This document shows positions 32,297 through 61,317 of a stretch of DNA of 64,000 nucleotides, in pieces. This stretch comes from a virus: the IMG/VR virus record IMGVR_UViG_3300028393_000019, positions 62,001 through 126,000 of that record; one strand, 5' to 3'. The stretch's first letter is position 1. Every line of letters starts with the position of its first letter. Position numbers and translations under genes: made by a program. The notes beneath the pieces were generated by a model. The model was given only the letters and a program-made list of their open reading frames with translations, did no database searches and had not been told where the DNA came from.

Positions 32297-32358
32297 TCCT
32301 CGTGGCCTCTTCATTCTCAGGGCTGTTTAAAACTAACTGTACAGTTCAGGCCTGGAGA

Positions 32359-32364
32359 TAAATA
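32359..32364 (+). promoter_or_regulatory. Late promoter TAAATA, 4 nt before ATG 32369
   Basis: GATAAATATC starts the block of genes with capsid-targeting-like N-termini. Leaderless start predicted. Confidence 0.65.
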
Positions 32365-32368
32365 TCAT

Positions 32369-32743
32369 ATGCAAATAAAAGACATCATCGGCGAAAACTG
32401 GGCCAACAATGCACATTTAGGTGCCGGCAGTGAACGAGCCCAAGATCAACGCTTGTTGGAAAAACAGCCCAAACGCCGCAAGTCCAAAGTGCGCGAAGGT
32501 CTATTGCCCGTACAACCTGTGTTGGCTGCCATACGCATGTTCAATCGCAAACGTGAAGCATATGAGCTGTTTACTAGACCATTTGCATCAGCAGAAGAAG
32601 CCACAGCATGGGTCAACAAGAACAATGCAGAACTGCATAGTCTAACACCAGCCAAACCCACCGCACAGCCTCAAAGTCCTGCTGATCTACAAAATATGAC
32701 ACAACAGATACAGACAGCACGTAAAATAGGCGACAGCCGCTAA
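32369..32743 (+). CDS. Late protein with capsid-targeting-like N-terminus (124 aa)
   Basis: The N-terminus MQIKDIIGE|N has the spacing of a T4 capsid-targeting peptide with a prohead-protease-type site (I-x-E) at residue 9. The rest is basic in the middle (QPKRRKSKVREG), then helical (AAIRMFNRKREAYELF), and ends in a Gln/Pro-rich tail. It could be an internal head protein that binds DNA; this is inference. Confidence 0.7.
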   Translation: MQIKDIIGENWANNAHLGAGSERAQDQRLLEKQPKRRKSKVREGLLPVQPVLAAIRMFNRKREAYELFTRPFASAEEATAWVNKNNAELHSLTPAKPTAQPQSPADLQNMTQQIQTARKIGDSR

Positions 32744-32756
32744 CCAAGTATACCCC

Positions 32757-33602
32757 ATGACCAAGACCCTAAGAGACTATATCCAAGAAGCTGAGCGCAA
32801 ACGCAAACCCACAGATTCTTCCGATGCGGCCAAGCCCACACAAGAGCGTGATCCGTTCAGTGCATTTGATAACCTATTTGGAGATCAACCTGATCAACCC
32901 CTGGTCAATCGACCTGCAGAGCCAGGAGCCGATGAACCCGGCGCTCAAGCTCCTAGTCATGACCCCCGAACCAATCGTGCTGGTCAAAGTCGTACACAGC
33001 AGGCCACTGGCGGCATACATCATCCGGGCATGCGTGACATGCTGAGTCGACTGCGTGACATAGAAGGTGATCCCGATGATCCTGGTTATCCAGTTCCGGA
33101 TCAAGAAGCTGAAAATCAAATTGTACAGCATGTCAACACTGAAAACTTGCCCGCAGTAGCTGGTCAAGCACTCACAGCAGGCGGTGTACAAAATCCCGAA
33201 TTCCATCAAGTGGCCAACTTGCCCGGCAATATGAATCGTGCCATACGCACACTGGGACGTCACCTGTTTGCATCAATGACTCGTACTCCAACTGATCGTA
33301 TTTGGATGATAGCAAACCTAGATGGACAAGGTCCCAACACTCCGCAAGAAGTCAATGCAGTAGCCGGTTGGTTACGTGACAATGGAGATGATCTAGGTGA
33401 TGGTGACATAGATTTTGCACAGAGCATGCCCGGATATACCGCAGACATACATCAGTATTCAGCCAACGGAATACGCTGGCTGTTGGTGCATGATCAGTTT
33501 GGACACTACATATATTCATGGCCCGAGAACGAAAGTACAGACAATCGTGCCGCTCCCGAACTAGGCCACGCTCGACCACATCGCAGTTTACTGGGCAGAT
33601 AA
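32757..33602 (+). CDS. Late protein with capsid-targeting-like N-terminus (281 aa)
   Basis: It begins MTKTLRDYIQE|A, close to the T4 internal-protein leader MKTYQEFIAE|A. Residues 15-120 are low-complexity and hydrophilic (Asp, Pro, Gln, Ala), followed by a more ordered C-terminal domain (GYTADIHQYSANG, WLLVHDQFGHYIYSW). Its stop codon TAA forms the first bases of the next late box. Confidence 0.7.
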   Translation: MTKTLRDYIQEAERKRKPTDSSDAAKPTQERDPFSAFDNLFGDQPDQPLVNRPAEPGADEPGAQAPSHDPRTNRAGQSRTQQATGGIHHPGMRDMLSRLRDIEGDPDDPGYPVPDQEAENQIVQHVNTENLPAVAGQALTAGGVQNPEFHQVANLPGNMNRAIRTLGRHLFASMTRTPTDRIWMIANLDGQGPNTPQEVNAVAGWLRDNGDDLGDGDIDFAQSMPGYTADIHQYSANGIRWLLVHDQFGHYIYSWPENESTDNRAAPELGHARPHRSLLGR

Positions 33603-33605
33603 ATA
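33600..33605 (+). promoter_or_regulatory. Late promoter TAAATA, 4 nt before ATG 33610
   Basis: GATAAATACA; the first three bases are also the stop codon of the upstream gene. Leaderless start predicted. Confidence 0.65.
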
Positions 33606-33609
33606 CATC

Positions 33610-34479
33610 ATGAGCATACAACTATTCAGCCAACTGTGCGAACAGATCATTACCGAAGCCAGTTCAGCACTGACCTTACTGGGCACACATCCCGGCGCTG
33701 CCGCAGTTATTAAAAAACTGCACGGTGATCAAGCATTGAGCCACAATCAAGACTTTGGCAAGATCACCAAGATCAGCTGGAGCGATCTAAAAAATCGTTT
33801 TCCCAAAGGTTGGGTCTTGGTCACTGGCCCCAAAGGATCTGGTGCCATACAAGCACGTAACGGCAACTATGAAGCACTGGCATCAACTGGTGCAGACCCC
33901 GTGGGATTCAACGATTCCAAGGGCGGCAATGTGCTGGACTTTCTACAGGGACAGCTAGGCGGCAAGTGGGAAAAGTACTCCTACTGGATCGGCACAGAAA
34001 ACAAGTACGCCAGCAACAAGCGCAACGATCGCAAACAAGCGGCTCCCAAACAGCAGTCAATGAATCAAGAAACACTGATGAACAAGTTCCGTCCCCTATG
34101 GGCCAAGAGCATGCAGGCAGCCATTGCAGACGGCAAGGGCATGGCCGGAGTCATGTTGAAAAACGATGCGTTTGAAAAAGTTGAAAAGAAACTCAAACAA
34201 CTACAGTATCTACAGCGCGGACTAGATGAATTGGAATCAGGCAACAAAGAACCACCAGACTGGATCAAGGGTGCCATCAACTCAGCAATCTTGATGAGTG
34301 CGGCCTACTATTATCCCGAAGAAACTGGTGAAATTACTCGTAGCCGTTACGGCGGAGCCAGCTATTCCAGTGAACGTCATGAGGGCGCACAAAAATTACT
34401 ACAGGATCTCAGCAACGGTGACACAGCCAAGTTGGGCACAGTGTTGGGATTCTTCAAACGGAGTTTGATTTCAGGATGA
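33610..34479 (+). CDS. Late protein with capsid-targeting-like N-terminus (289 aa)
   Basis: The N-terminus MSIQLFSQLCEQIITE|A is longer than its neighbours' but ends in a perfect I-x-E|A site at residue 16. The body contains a basic KGWVLVTGPKGSG stretch that is not a Walker motif, and a helical C-terminal half rich in Lys (EKVEKKLKQLQYL). Coupled by 4 nt to the next gene. Function unknown. Confidence 0.75.
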   Translation: MSIQLFSQLCEQIITEASSALTLLGTHPGAAAVIKKLHGDQALSHNQDFGKITKISWSDLKNRFPKGWVLVTGPKGSGAIQARNGNYEALASTGADPVGFNDSKGGNVLDFLQGQLGGKWEKYSYWIGTENKYASNKRNDRKQAAPKQQSMNQETLMNKFRPLWAKSMQAAIADGKGMAGVMLKNDAFEKVEKKLKQLQYLQRGLDELESGNKEPPDWIKGAINSAILMSAAYYYPEETGEITRSRYGGASYSSERHEGAQKLLQDLSNGDTAKLGTVLGFFKRSLISG

Positions 34480-36740
34480 AAACCCTAGACCTAATTAAAG
34501 AAGCCAACGTGGCAGCCAAGATTCGAGATCCTGGCATGATCAAGAAGATCTACATAGCCATGACCAATGATGGCTCAGTACCCAAGGCCGCACTGGCACG
34601 TCTAGGCGTGCGTCCCACTCCCGAACAAGCACTACAGCTATGGAGCCAGCTACTAGATGGTGCATTGAGTAGCACACGCTACGGTGATGTGTCAGCAGAC
34701 GGCAAGTTTGACGAATGGCTCACACGCTTGTACACCAACGGACAAGCAGACTACGAAGACATATCAGGCGAAGGTGGTGACGCACTGGGTGCTTGGAAAG
34801 CACTGAGTATTCGCGGCAAACTAGCGCCAGAACACCAGGATTTCAACAAGTTCCGCAGTATCAAGAACATACAACAGATCATTAACAAGCAGAACTATCG
34901 CGAAGAACTGCGCCGTATTGCCGATGCTGAAGTTATTGAAAAGCACAAGCGTGAGCGCAAAGAAGTTGTGCTGATCGATGATAGTCGTTTTCTAGTGGTG
35001 TTGCCCTTGAACTACGGTGCTTGCTACACATTCAACAATTCAGCTGGCTACCAGGCCAACTTTTGCACAGGCTCAAGCAGTGGTCTGCGTTGGTTCCAAA
35101 ACTACGCACCCGATGGTCCTGTTATCTCAGTAACAGACAAGACCAACATGGAGCATGTGGAAGGCAAGTGGCAACTGCATGCTCAGACACGTCAGATTGT
35201 GGACGCAGATCAAACTCGTCGACATGATACTCAATGGAATGACGAGCGTTTTAGCAAGCTGTTCCCGGGTTTGATGAAGGCCATTGGCTCAGCCATGATG
35301 GCCAAAGCAGAAGAACTGCATGAGGGTAGCAAAGAGCTGACCAACGGCAAGGGCTATGATGTGGCCAAAGACGTGGGCGATCTACAAAAGACCTATCCAC
35401 TAAGCTGGGCCAGTGAGCCAGAAAAATCGGAAGAAACTCCGGATCAAGGTCCAGGCACTTATCTAGTAACACACACTCCCACTGGTAGAACAGCTCGTAT
35501 AGAAGGTGAATCAGCGGAAGATGTCAAGGCCAAACTGCAGGCTCGACACCCCACTGCCAACATGGAAGAGTTTACATTTGTGCTAGATCAGCCTGCTCAG
35601 CAACAACCGGCCAACGATCAACAGGCCGAGCCACCACAGGCAGTGGCTGAAAGTTGGGCACAAAAGATGGCCGAACATGCACTATTGAAACTGGTACCAA
35701 AGAAAAAGACCCTAACAGAAGAAACATTTAATCAGGCCTACGCCGCGGCCAAAGCCAGTGGTCTAACACAGTTTAAATGGAATGGCGGAACTTATGGCGT
35801 GGCTGCTCCGGCAGCAACCAACAGTGGGCCACACCCCGTAGCTCGTCCAGCTGTGGCACCAGCTCCGGTAGCTTCCAATCCAGCTGCCAGCATATATCAA
35901 ACATTGACAGCACAGCCAGCACCCAGCGCCACTGCTGCCGATCCATCAACAGCACAGCCCACAGTCAATATACCGGCAGCCACTGCAGAACCTGCTCCAG
36001 CACCCGAAGGTGACTATCAAGCACCACGCACAGCTCCCGGTCCTGCTCCAGCACCCGAAGGTGACTATCAAGCACCACGTACTGCTCCTACGCTGACACC
36101 ACAACAACAAGCACAGAACGTAATGAGTCCTGGTTCAGCCACTGCTACAAAAGGCCCAAATCCCAACATAAACAACGCCACGAGAGCCAAGGCTGCCAAA
36201 CAGATCAAGGGAACCCAACAGGTAGACCCAGCGGACGGCAGTATCACTATAGGCAATCAAAAGCGTATAGGTGGAAATATAAACTGGCGAGCAAACAATC
36301 CCGGAAACAACATGATGAGCCCGTTGGCCCAGCAGTATGGAGCAGTGGGTTATATTGTAGCCGGAGACAAAGAACCAGTGGCCATCATGCCCAACCTAGA
36401 AGCAGGCACCAAATTGCAAATGGCACAATGGCGCATGCCCAAGTACAACAATCTCACTATAGATCAAGGTTGCCAATTGTGGGCTGTGGCCAACAGGGGC
36501 ATACGCGGCACAGACTATGCTAAAGATCTAGCCAGGGCGGCAGGTGCTACCATAGACACTCCTGTAAAAGATTTATCTGACGAACAACTACGCAAGATGT
36601 GTTTGAAACAGGGACATTGGGAAGGCGGTCCAAACACTGTTCAAGTAGTGGCTGCCAACACACCAACTAATCCCACACAAGCAGTGGGTGAAAGTTGGGC
36701 TCAAAGGATGGCCAACACAGCCTTGCTCAAGGTGGTTTAA
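34476..36740 (+). CDS. Large late protein with C-terminal lysozyme-like domain (754 aa)
   Basis: The N-terminus MKTLDLIKE|A matches the capsid-targeting plan. Residues 30-300 form an alpha/beta domain (EVVLIDDSRFLVVLPLNYG). A duplicated ESWAQ(K/R)MA..ALLK(L/V)V peptide occurs near residue 390 and at the C-terminus. A Pro/Ala linker carries a 17-residue tandem repeat. The C-terminal ~140 residues (WRANNPGN at about 605, KYNNLTIDQGCQLWAV, HWEG) match the gene at 60706 and resemble the NNPGN murein-hydrolase fold of phage virions. It may be a packaged or tail-borne muramidase. Confidence 0.78.
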   Translation: MKTLDLIKEANVAAKIRDPGMIKKIYIAMTNDGSVPKAALARLGVRPTPEQALQLWSQLLDGALSSTRYGDVSADGKFDEWLTRLYTNGQADYEDISGEGGDALGAWKALSIRGKLAPEHQDFNKFRSIKNIQQIINKQNYREELRRIADAEVIEKHKRERKEVVLIDDSRFLVVLPLNYGACYTFNNSAGYQANFCTGSSSGLRWFQNYAPDGPVISVTDKTNMEHVEGKWQLHAQTRQIVDADQTRRHDTQWNDERFSKLFPGLMKAIGSAMMAKAEELHEGSKELTNGKGYDVAKDVGDLQKTYPLSWASEPEKSEETPDQGPGTYLVTHTPTGRTARIEGESAEDVKAKLQARHPTANMEEFTFVLDQPAQQQPANDQQAEPPQAVAESWAQKMAEHALLKLVPKKKTLTEETFNQAYAAAKASGLTQFKWNGGTYGVAAPAATNSGPHPVARPAVAPAPVASNPAASIYQTLTAQPAPSATAADPSTAQPTVNIPAATAEPAPAPEGDYQAPRTAPGPAPAPEGDYQAPRTAPTLTPQQQAQNVMSPGSATATKGPNPNINNATRAKAAKQIKGTQQVDPADGSITIGNQKRIGGNINWRANNPGNNMMSPLAQQYGAVGYIVAGDKEPVAIMPNLEAGTKLQMAQWRMPKYNNLTIDQGCQLWAVANRGIRGTDYAKDLARAAGATIDTPVKDLSDEQLRKMCLKQGHWEGGPNTVQVVAANTPTNPTQAVGESWAQRMANTALLKVV
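35991..36089 (+). repeat. 51-bp tandem repeat encoding a Pro-rich linker
   Basis: Two nearly identical copies (starts 35991 and 36042) encode PAPAPEGDYQAPRTAP plus one residue. Confidence 0.9.
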
Positions 36741-36741
36741 C

Positions 36742-37341
36742 ATGCGAGCACGTGAGTTTGTGATTGACGGTGCTGATCCTGTAAAAAATGCAGTGGGTGC
36801 GGCACTGCCCACAGCAGTCAGTAATATTGCGCCCGAGTTTCTCAAACGATATCCCCAACTGGCACAGGTGGCCGCGTTGAGTCCCTATGCGGCACAGATA
36901 GTACAACAGTTGGCCACAAGACAGCCGACCCAGGCAGCTGTGACTGCACTACAGAATTTTGTGCCTAGTTTTCCGGGAATCCCACGAGAAATAGGCGACC
37001 TACTGAGTCATTGGAGCAACACAGGCACTGTTCGCGGTGTGGCTGGACATTTGGTGGGAGACGCAGTGGCTGCCGCGGGAGCCGTGCCCACTGCACTGAG
37101 CTTGCCTTATATGATGGCCGGACAAGAGCAGGAAAAGATCAATGCAGATCTATGGAATCCTATCTACAACACCAATCCCTATGCTCAACAACAGCGCAGT
37201 CGAGCACAAGGCGGCACACAAACACAAGGTCAAGCTGGTGCACAAAATGCCAGGAACGCAGTGCGCACACAGTCAACTACAGCTAATCCCATGCCGGGCA
37301 CTCCGGAGTTTGCACAGTTACAACAGCAGTATCAACGCTGA
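36742..37341 (+). CDS. Late alanine-rich protein (199 aa)
   Basis: ATG 36742 is taken because the upstream in-frame ATG (36688) lies inside the previous gene. The N-terminus MRAREFVID|G is a variant of the capsid-targeting pattern with Asp for Glu. The middle is Ala/Val-rich and could form helices that touch membranes (VRGVAGHLVGDAVAAAG); the C-terminus is Gln/Asn/Thr-rich and disordered. It ends two bases before the convergent minus-strand gene. Confidence 0.75.
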   Translation: MRAREFVIDGADPVKNAVGAALPTAVSNIAPEFLKRYPQLAQVAALSPYAAQIVQQLATRQPTQAAVTALQNFVPSFPGIPREIGDLLSHWSNTGTVRGVAGHLVGDAVAAAGAVPTALSLPYMMAGQEQEKINADLWNPIYNTNPYAQQQRSRAQGGTQTQGQAGAQNARNAVRTQSTTANPMPGTPEFAQLQQQYQR

Positions 37342-59748: not shown

Positions 59749-59754
59749 AAACAA

Positions 59755-59760
59755 TAAATA
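59755..59760 (+). promoter_or_regulatory. Late promoter TAAATA, 7 nt before ATG 59768
   Basis: AATAAATACA. Confidence 0.6.
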
Positions 59761-59767
59761 CATTACT

Positions 59768-60187
59768 ATGCGAATATCCGAACTATTAAACGAATCTAAA
59801 ACAGACAAAATTGCTCCTAGTAAGCCACGCAATTTCGTGGCTAAGAATGCCAAGGGCAGTGGTTCTGGCGCACACAAAGACAAGAGTAAAACTATTCCTC
59901 GCAAGGAAAAGCACAAGAAGTCTATGCCTGTATGCGAGCATTGCGGTGAACTGCATGAAGTCCAGTTAGATGAGCATGGCAAGGCCAGCAAACAGCTATG
60001 TCAAAGTTCAAAACCTGACAGCGAACTGGGTGCCAGTAATCTAGCATCATGCAAGAGTCAAGGTCTACGTGCTCGTGATGGTGAGAAGAGTCACAAGCTG
60101 GGCAAGAGTCCCAAAAGCCGAATCAAAGTAGGCGGCCATCGTATCAAAGGCAAGAAGTACGGCGGACCTTTGCCTGACTGGAGTTAG
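59768..60187 (+). CDS. Basic late protein with capsid-targeting-like N-terminus (139 aa)
   Basis: MRISELLNE|S gives a perfect L-x-E|S prohead-protease site at residue 9. The rest is very basic (KPRNFVAKNAKG, KHKKSMP, KVGGHRIKGKKYGG), with a CEHCGELH zinc-type motif at about residues 59-66. Likely a DNA-binding internal head protein; inference. Confidence 0.75.
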   Translation: MRISELLNESKTDKIAPSKPRNFVAKNAKGSGSGAHKDKSKTIPRKEKHKKSMPVCEHCGELHEVQLDEHGKASKQLCQSSKPDSELGASNLASCKSQGLRARDGEKSHKLGKSPKSRIKVGGHRIKGKKYGGPLPDWS

Positions 60188-60188
60188 G

Positions 60189-60701
60189 ATGAAAGTTACG
60201 GAACTGGTTCAAGAAAGTTCGTGGGATGAATTCCTAAGCAAAAGTCTCGGTGATGTTACCGGTGGCGGATCTGTCGGTTCCTTACTGAGTAAATCATCTG
60301 ATAAAACAGACATCAGTAAACCATACATCGGTTACAAGACAGGTAAGATGATCCGACCAGTTGATGCTAAGGCAGGCAGTCCTTTTGGCCCTAGGCATGG
60401 CCAATCTCATAATGGAACAGACTTTCCGGTACCAACCGGCACTCCTGTTAAATCGCCCGAAGACGGCGTTATTAAAAAAACAGGATCAGACAGAATGAAT
60501 GGCAATCATGTGGTTATCTCAAGCGGAAACAACGAACACTGGCTCTTACATTTGTCTAAGATCAATGTATCCAACGGACAAAAGGTCAATCAAGGAGATG
60601 TGGTTGGTTTATCAGGCAGTACTGGTAAATCAACAGGACCGCATCTACACTGGGAAGTTCATGTTGCCGGCCGTCCAGTAGATCCAACCACCGTGGCTTA
60701 A
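60189..60701 (+). CDS. M23-family murein endopeptidase with late leader (170 aa)
   Basis: The catalytic zinc site is visible: HNGTD (His74, Asp78) and HLHWEVH near residue 153. The family cuts peptide cross-links in peptidoglycan. The N-terminal 33 residues (MKVTELVQE|SSWDEFL..., GDVTGGGSVGSLL) are nearly identical to the next gene's and carry a protease-type site after Glu9. No signal peptide, so it is probably virion-borne. Confidence 0.88.
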   Translation: MKVTELVQESSWDEFLSKSLGDVTGGGSVGSLLSKSSDKTDISKPYIGYKTGKMIRPVDAKAGSPFGPRHGQSHNGTDFPVPTGTPVKSPEDGVIKKTGSDRMNGNHVVISSGNNEHWLLHLSKINVSNGQKVNQGDVVGLSGSTGKSTGPHLHWEVHVAGRPVDPTTVA

Positions 60702-60705
60702 CAAT

Positions 60706-61317
60706 ATGAAAATAACAGAACTGGTACGTGAAAGCTCATGGGACGAATTTCTGAGCAAGAGTCTTGGAGATGTAACTGGTGGAGGATCTGTCGGTTCATT
60801 GCTTGGTCCATCTGGTAACAGCAAAACAAGTGACACTAGTTCAGACACAGACTCAAGCACAGCAGGTGCAACATCGGCTCGTGTTGACAAAGACGGATCT
60901 ATTGTGATAGGCAATCAAAAACGCAGTGGCGGTACAATATCTTGGAGAGCAAACAACCCGGGTAATGTCATGTACGGCGCATTTGCCAAGAGCCACGGAT
61001 CAATAGGATCGGCCAAAGCTGCCGATGCAGAACCTGTTGCCATCATGCCAACTCTGGATCACGGTATTAAAATGCAGATGGCACTGTGGCGCAGGCCCAT
61101 GTACAACAATTTGACCATTGACAAAGGAGCTCAGCAATGGGCTGTTGCTGTCAAGAAACAAGGACGCGGATCCAAGTATGCTCGAGACCTTGCCGCAGGA
61201 GCAGGTGCAACCATTGATACTAGAGTTTCGGATCTATCCGATGACCAACTCAAAGGATTGATCAAGGCTCAGATGCACTGGGAAGGATTCAAACCAGGAA
61301 CAGTGACCACAGTTTGA
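60706..61317 (+). CDS. NNPGN-type murein-hydrolase-like protein with late leader (203 aa)
   Basis: After the shared 33-residue N-terminus (MKITELVRE|SSWDEFL) and a Ser/Thr/Asp linker (34-60), the C-terminal 140 residues (WRANNPGN at 80-87, EPVAIMPTLDHG, MYNNLTIDKGAQQWAV, HWEG) match the 754-aa protein and recall the NNPGN lysozyme-like domain of phage virions. Likely a virion muramidase; catalytic Glu not assigned. Confidence 0.75.
   Translation: MKITELVRESSWDEFLSKSLGDVTGGGSVGSLLGPSGNSKTSDTSSDTDSSTAGATSARVDKDGSIVIGNQKRSGGTISWRANNPGNVMYGAFAKSHGSIGSAKAADAEPVAIMPTLDHGIKMQMALWRRPMYNNLTIDKGAQQWAVAVKKQGRGSKYARDLAAGAGATIDTRVSDLSDDQLKGLIKAQMHWEGFKPGTVTTV

Follow-up and report, generated by a model that had tools for sequence, protein, structure and literature searches.

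The short leaders with which eight genes in a 64,000-nucleotide stretch of viral DNA (the window) begin are by far best accounted for as cleaved prohead-targeting propeptides of the T4 type, a reading that we hold to be very probable. It draws on the enrichment of the leader pattern, its alignment in the T4 frame, the invariance of the Glu at P1, predicted disorder up to the cut, the S77 protease and gp23 of related phages and the presence of late-promoter boxes. On balance we also favour the wider view that [LIV]-x-E is a portable packing code in T4-like jumbo phages and cyanophages, with cargo carried either singly behind a leader or as a polyprotein diced in the prohead. If that is true, a few added residues would be enough to turn any gene product into head cargo.

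The window comprises bases 62001-126000 of IMG/VR virus record IMGVR_UViG_3300028393_000019 (265,680 bases), a linear fragment the ends of which do not overlap. Genes for TerL, a gp32-like protein, UvsX, UvsY, a DnaB-like helicase and primase identify the phage as a T4-like jumbo phage; among cultured phages, Sinorhizobium phage Phosso and Pseudomonas phage PA5oct have the nearest TerL proteins, at ∼50% identity. A simple purpose-built codon-usage caller gave 321 genes on the whole record, and gene counts are approximate for that reason. Three genes of the tryptophan-halogenase family (PF04820; genome 32553, 42400 and 209300) are unusual content for one phage; the genes at genome 43928 and 45430 have starts that resemble theirs. 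At genome 203237-206855 lies a row of similar small genes with starts like MKLLANYKDWIKPKWVEE, apparently tandem paralogues.

Leader genes and their frequency

The eight leader-like N-termini listed in a preliminary description of the window were all found at the positions and with the readings given there, and its count of Glu at residue 9 in five of the eight is correct. All are on the plus strand; genes of the window are named here by their first base, and a bar marks the predicted cut. Five lie in a row: 32369..32743 (124-aa protein; leader MQIKDIIGE|N, 32369-32395), 32757..33602 (281 aa; T4-like leader MTKTLRDYIQE|A, 32757-32789), 33610..34479 (289 aa; longer leader MSIQLFSQLCEQIITE|A, 33610-33657), 34476..36740 (754 aa; MKTLDLIKE|A, 34476-34502) and 36742..37341 (199 aa; MRAREFVID|G, with Asp at P1). 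The other three comprise 59768..60187, which encodes a strongly basic 139-aa protein (MRISELLNE|S; net charge +16) whose modules are carried behind other leaders in relatives, 60189..60701, an M23 peptidase (MKVTELVQE|S; Pfam PF01551, E 5e-30), and 60706..61317, an NNPGN lysozyme-like protein (MKITELVRE|S).

As a single pattern the eight starts hold only in part. The strict expression ^M...[DE][LIF][ILV].E, taken from the preliminary description, fits five of them, that of 32369 included, and misses 32757 (Glu at 11), 33610 (Glu at 16) and 36742 (Asp, not Glu, at 9). The whole-genome search proposed in that description finds it in 8 of the 321 called genes. Shuffled N-termini give an expectation of 0.13, with no more than 2 matches in any of 1000 shuffles, and internal protein positions one of 0.08. 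Because the expression was derived from genes in the window, the clean test is provided by genes outside it, where three matches occur (genome 132864, 137036 and 158352). Four relatives, G001, G002, G003 and PA5oct, have 4, 3, 2 and 4 matching genes, with 0.18, 0.10, 0.06 and 0.16 expected. When aligned on the presumed cut, the leaders have the form hydrophobic-x-[DE]-hydrophobic-hydrophobic-x-E (P7-P1), a motif present in 10 genes of the window's own record (0.45 expected) and in 9, 5, 4 and 3 genes of the same relatives (0.60, 0.28, 0.25 and 0.62 expected); for PA5oct alone the value of 3 against 0.62 falls inside the shuffle range. One G001 match, 287670 (MSLKELTAE), resembles heme oxygenase and was probably picked up falsely by the relaxed motif. 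The pattern is not equally common in early-type genes: the P7-P1 motif occurs in none of the 49 genes of the early-type block of small genes on the minus strand of the window.

Could a few duplicated gene starts, or chance, have produced the pattern? The proteins had been described as otherwise unrelated in their bodies, which is mostly so, with two exceptions: 60189 and 60706 share an N-terminal block of 33 codons, in which 79 of 99 bases are identical, and the body of 60706 is matched at 52% identity by the C-terminal part of 34476. The first is just such a pair as recent paralogy would produce. Other pairs of leaders have merely 14-18 of 27 bases in common, however, and the enrichment lies far above shuffled expectation both in the window's own genome and in relatives. 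These results refute chance or recent paralogy as a general account, and we give it next to no probability.

The T4-type late box ATAAATA is rare, with 43 copies when both strands of the stretches are counted. It lies within 80 bases upstream of 34 genes, among them 6 of 14 leader genes as against 28 of 307 others (p = 0.0015), and by this measure the leader genes are predicted to be expressed late. Boxes at 32358..32364 and 33599..33605, both on the plus strand, end 4 nt upstream of the starts of 32369 and 33610, and another at 59754..59760 (+) ends 7 nt upstream of 59768. Genome-wide, the box is merely 3-7 nt ahead of the start codon in 14 genes and mostly 18-27 nt ahead in others; both the box and its close spacing are kept in the orthologues of 33610. 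If transcription starts as in T4, the late mRNAs of the genes with 3-7-nt spacing would be leaderless.

The predicted cut site and the candidate protease

Mutational mapping of the T4 targeting sequence assigns residues 4 and 7 to targeting and residues 8 and 10 to cutting (review PMC9026906). The leaders align in one frame with those of T4 IPII and IPIII, MKTYQEFIAE|A, and, when counted from the cut, have hydrophobic residues at the T4-equivalent positions 4, 7 and 8 and Glu at 10. The proposal that they are T4-like therefore agrees with all four positions mapped in T4. Orthologues of 32757 begin MKTFRDYLxE|A, close to the leader of T4 itself. In the 34476 family E9|A10 is invariant in 13/13 orthologues, while the leader varies from ∼8 to 17 residues in length and includes MKTLDLIKE, MKLKQIFE, MKIKHLLTESIVTE and others. 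The Glu of the 33610 family (E16) is likewise invariant in 13/13 orthologues, with P3 hydrophobic in most, and some members have a one-residue indel just before the cut-site residues. In AlphaFold models the low-confidence N-terminal segment stops at residue 10 of 34476 and residue 16 of 33610, which coincide with the predicted cuts. A PDB fold search with 34476 matched no fold, and the significant matches of 33610 in a viral fold search were only unnamed phage proteins.

The Asp at P1 of 36742 departs from this pattern. In T4 mutants Asp at P1 still permits targeting and blocks cutting (PMC9026906), and by analogy the 36742 protein may be targeted yet stay uncut.

No gene for the S77 protease, gp20 or gp23 was found on the 265,680-base record, and Pfam PF03420, PF07068 and PF07230 have no match on it. 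We take the missing S77 and gp23 genes as an effect of the linear fragment, since both are present in five relatives (G001, G002, G003, PA5oct and Phosso). In the relatives inspected the order is that of T4: portal, small core genes, protease, scaffold, capsid protein. The gp23 N-termini of relatives contain KYLSE|SATAGATSAG, KYLAE|AATAGATSAG or RFLVE|NASAGATQAG, with a predicted cut at L-x-E|[SAN] that has the same P3-P1' pattern as the leaders. A small G001 protein, MKISDILRE|TATAGATSAG, joins the two, having a leader followed by a copy of the gp23-type sequence, so that the apparent N-terminus of a mature capsid protein, TATAGATSAGNIAS, stands behind MKISDILRE. Proteins other than gp23 (G001 174382, PA5oct gp281 and L127) also have motifs like TATAGATSAGNIAS behind cut-like sites that end in Glu. 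In PA5oct, the gene between portal and protease, gp333, starts MKINDIITE|G, and its product has been found in virions by mass spectrometry.

Modules and internal sites

The same motif recurs inside longer proteins. Gene 127567 (genome 127567-128988, outside the window) encodes a basic 473-aa protein with the appearance of a polyprotein made up of modules, DUF6321 among them, separated by LQE|K, VAE|G, VAE|G and VAE|D; it contains LQE|KWSQKYKSSINC and VAE|DWNKVN. In relatives its modules start separate genes behind leaders (MRAREFITE|KW, MRIFEILNE|DW). As a genome-wide excess, VAE|[GDSNA] was rejected: there are 9 occurrences against 6.3 expected in the window's own genome, with no overall enrichment, and they are concentrated only in gene 127567. 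The 34476 protein consists of its leader, a body domain (residues ∼11-380) and a C-terminal NNPGN lysozyme-like domain. Most orthologues stop near residue 380; here AVAE|SW (residues 389-392; 35640..35651, +), a predicted internal prohead-protease site, links the ancestral body to the fused lysozyme-like part, and a second copy, AVGE|SW, lies at 36681-36692 (+). In L038 the lysozyme-like part is encoded by a gene of its own, which begins with the leader MRAREFIFE.

Many copies of such modules were gathered from IMG/VR with queries that omitted the site residues P3-P2'. Of 67 contexts of the KW module, 63 have Glu at P1 and 62 have L/I/V/M at P3; the complete motif precedes the DW module in 58 of 64. 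Before internal copies [LIVM]-x-E was found in 31/33 (KW), 16/20 (DW), 42/45 (WF) and only 33/52 (DACY) contexts, compared with background rates of ∼0.16-0.19 at P3 and, for the Glu, 0.06-0.11. There is no enrichment of L/I/V/M at P2 or P4, except at P4 of DACY (0.38).

The DW module, which corresponds to Pfam DUF6321, also occurs in eight T7-like phages, and there the site precedes it in 0/8, although as a control these copies are imperfectly matched, lacking the N-terminal W segment. S77 is encoded by 9/11 long module contigs and both cyanophages tested, compared with 0/5 of the T7-like control set; P values overstate the independence of all these module counts, because the contigs are related to one another. 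Two T7-like phages have the DW-module gene between the scaffold and capsid genes, a placement that suggests that its product is a head protein in T7-like phages without S77. Among marine T7-like phages, HTVC168P, Jormungand, S-TIP37 and DSL-LC07 have the DUF6321 gene either between the scaffold and capsid genes or near the capsid-assembly gene.

Two other readings bear on these sites. The N-termini could be docking peptides that remain uncut and hold proteins on the head, neck or baseplate, with the Glu forming part of a docking helix. PA5oct gp282, a homologue of a leader gene, begins MKSFRDYYDA, with no cut motif, yet is virion-associated, and the Asp at P1 of 36742 would also suit such a role. 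Docking does not explain why P3 and P1 are kept while leader length varies, however, and the internal module boundaries at which the motif also occurs would be a senseless place for a docking N-terminus; we consider this reading very unlikely. Nor do we give much weight to the idea that [LIV]-x-E is the initial part of each module's own fold and no protease site, even though the KW and DW modules have Glu at P1 in nearly all contexts. Four unrelated modules and the 34476, 33610 and gp23 families all show the motif, the T7-like copies of DW manage without it, and the leaders are predicted to be disordered up to the Glu, so that an origin in the fold appears highly improbable.

If the leaders are cleaved propeptides, as we conclude, their proteins would be made late, and each would be docked by its hydrophobic leader on the prohead's scaffold core. 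The phage S77 protease, of the gp21 type, would then cut after [LIV]-x-E, so that the bodies would be free within the head by the time DNA is packaged. Longer proteins would use an identical cut code internally, and interchangeable modules could thus be supplied singly behind a leader of 9-11 residues or as strings that the prohead protease dices. The cutting itself, the position of the proteins inside the head and their release to the host cell are the steps that we infer. Ejection with the DNA may follow, judging by analogy with T4 and by the peptidoglycan-hydrolase bodies of 60189, 60706 and the end of 34476, which would suit a role in cell entry comparable with that of T7 gp16.

Known systems and probable virion association

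The closest known counterparts are the T4 internal proteins IPI, IPII, IPIII and Alt, which likewise have a short N-terminal leader, hydrophobic residues at 4 and 7, I/L-x-E, late expression and unrelated bodies. Here, in contrast, leaders are mostly of 9 residues, there are many more carriers, the bodies include M23 and lysozyme-like proteins, and module strings have internal sites. The relatives match the T4 gp21 (Pfam Peptidase_S77)/gp23 propeptide system in having S77 beside gp22 and gp23, with a predicted L-x-E cut in gp23, whereas neither S77 nor gp23 turned up on the fragment that contains the window. Many internal head proteins of phiKZ and SPN3US are also cut after Glu, but the phiKZ motif is S/A-x-E and its protease has diverged (PMC9026906); the leaders here are short, and P3 is L/I/V/M, not S/A, in the great majority of contexts. 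The polyvalent proteins and DarA/DdrB of phage P1 resemble the module strings in having many domains per packaged chain and proteolytic release. They are large enzymes, however, with release thought to occur via embedded peptidase domains (Iyer et al. 2017, PMC5512222), whereas the modules here are small and their sites would serve a separate prohead protease; a Pfam search for embedded peptidase or ART domains gave no family in 34476 and only DUF6321 in genome 127567. The same modules are found in the cyanophage T4-GC119 proteins (P-SSM2_123, S-SM1_115), which adjoin gp15 and gp16, are annotated only as hypothetical and have no punctuation or targeting described for them in the accessible part of PMC3037559.

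The open-access papers searched contain no earlier account of module strings that are tagged with leaders or punctuated by protease sites, and we regard the proposed modular, protease-punctuated cargo system as a new variation on the T4 internal proteins. Targeting has so far been studied mainly in T4; the present reading would allow virion-borne proteins to be predicted, by a simple sequence rule, among the many unnamed ones that T4-like jumbo phages and cyanophages encode. It also suggests that bacteriophages have their own counterpart of viral polyproteins, with processing inside the prohead, and the leaders would be compact, naturally occurring tags by which proteins could be brought into phage heads.

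Packaging of the leader proteins in the head is likely, if slightly less certain than the cleaved propeptide. The original suggestion that they are both packaged and cut is partly supported: strongly, by comparative evidence, for the leader and cut site, and indirectly for packaging, through PA5oct homologues and fold matches, while enrichment of leaders among the MS-detected proteins of PA5oct is not significant (5/87 versus 5/216, p = 0.125). The body fold of 34476 matches PA5oct gp279, a structural protein detected in virions by mass spectrometry, at E 1.2e-5, with low TM-scores (0.23) and a weak colinear alignment; a sequence HMM search for PA5oct relatives of 34476 gave nothing significant. 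The PA5oct homologue of leader gene 60278 has also been detected in virions by mass spectrometry. Cyanophage T4-GC119 is a string of the leader-associated modules. The P-SSM2 entries for gp14, gp15, T4-GC119, gp18, gp19, gp20, gp21, gp23 and gp3 carry the note 'similar to Synechococcus phage S-SM1 protein', which is absent from gp16, gp17, gp22 and the replication and recombination genes. Since 41 virion proteins of S-SM1 were identified by mass spectrometry, according to PMC3037559, these notes and that count together indicate that T4-GC119 appears to be virion-associated.
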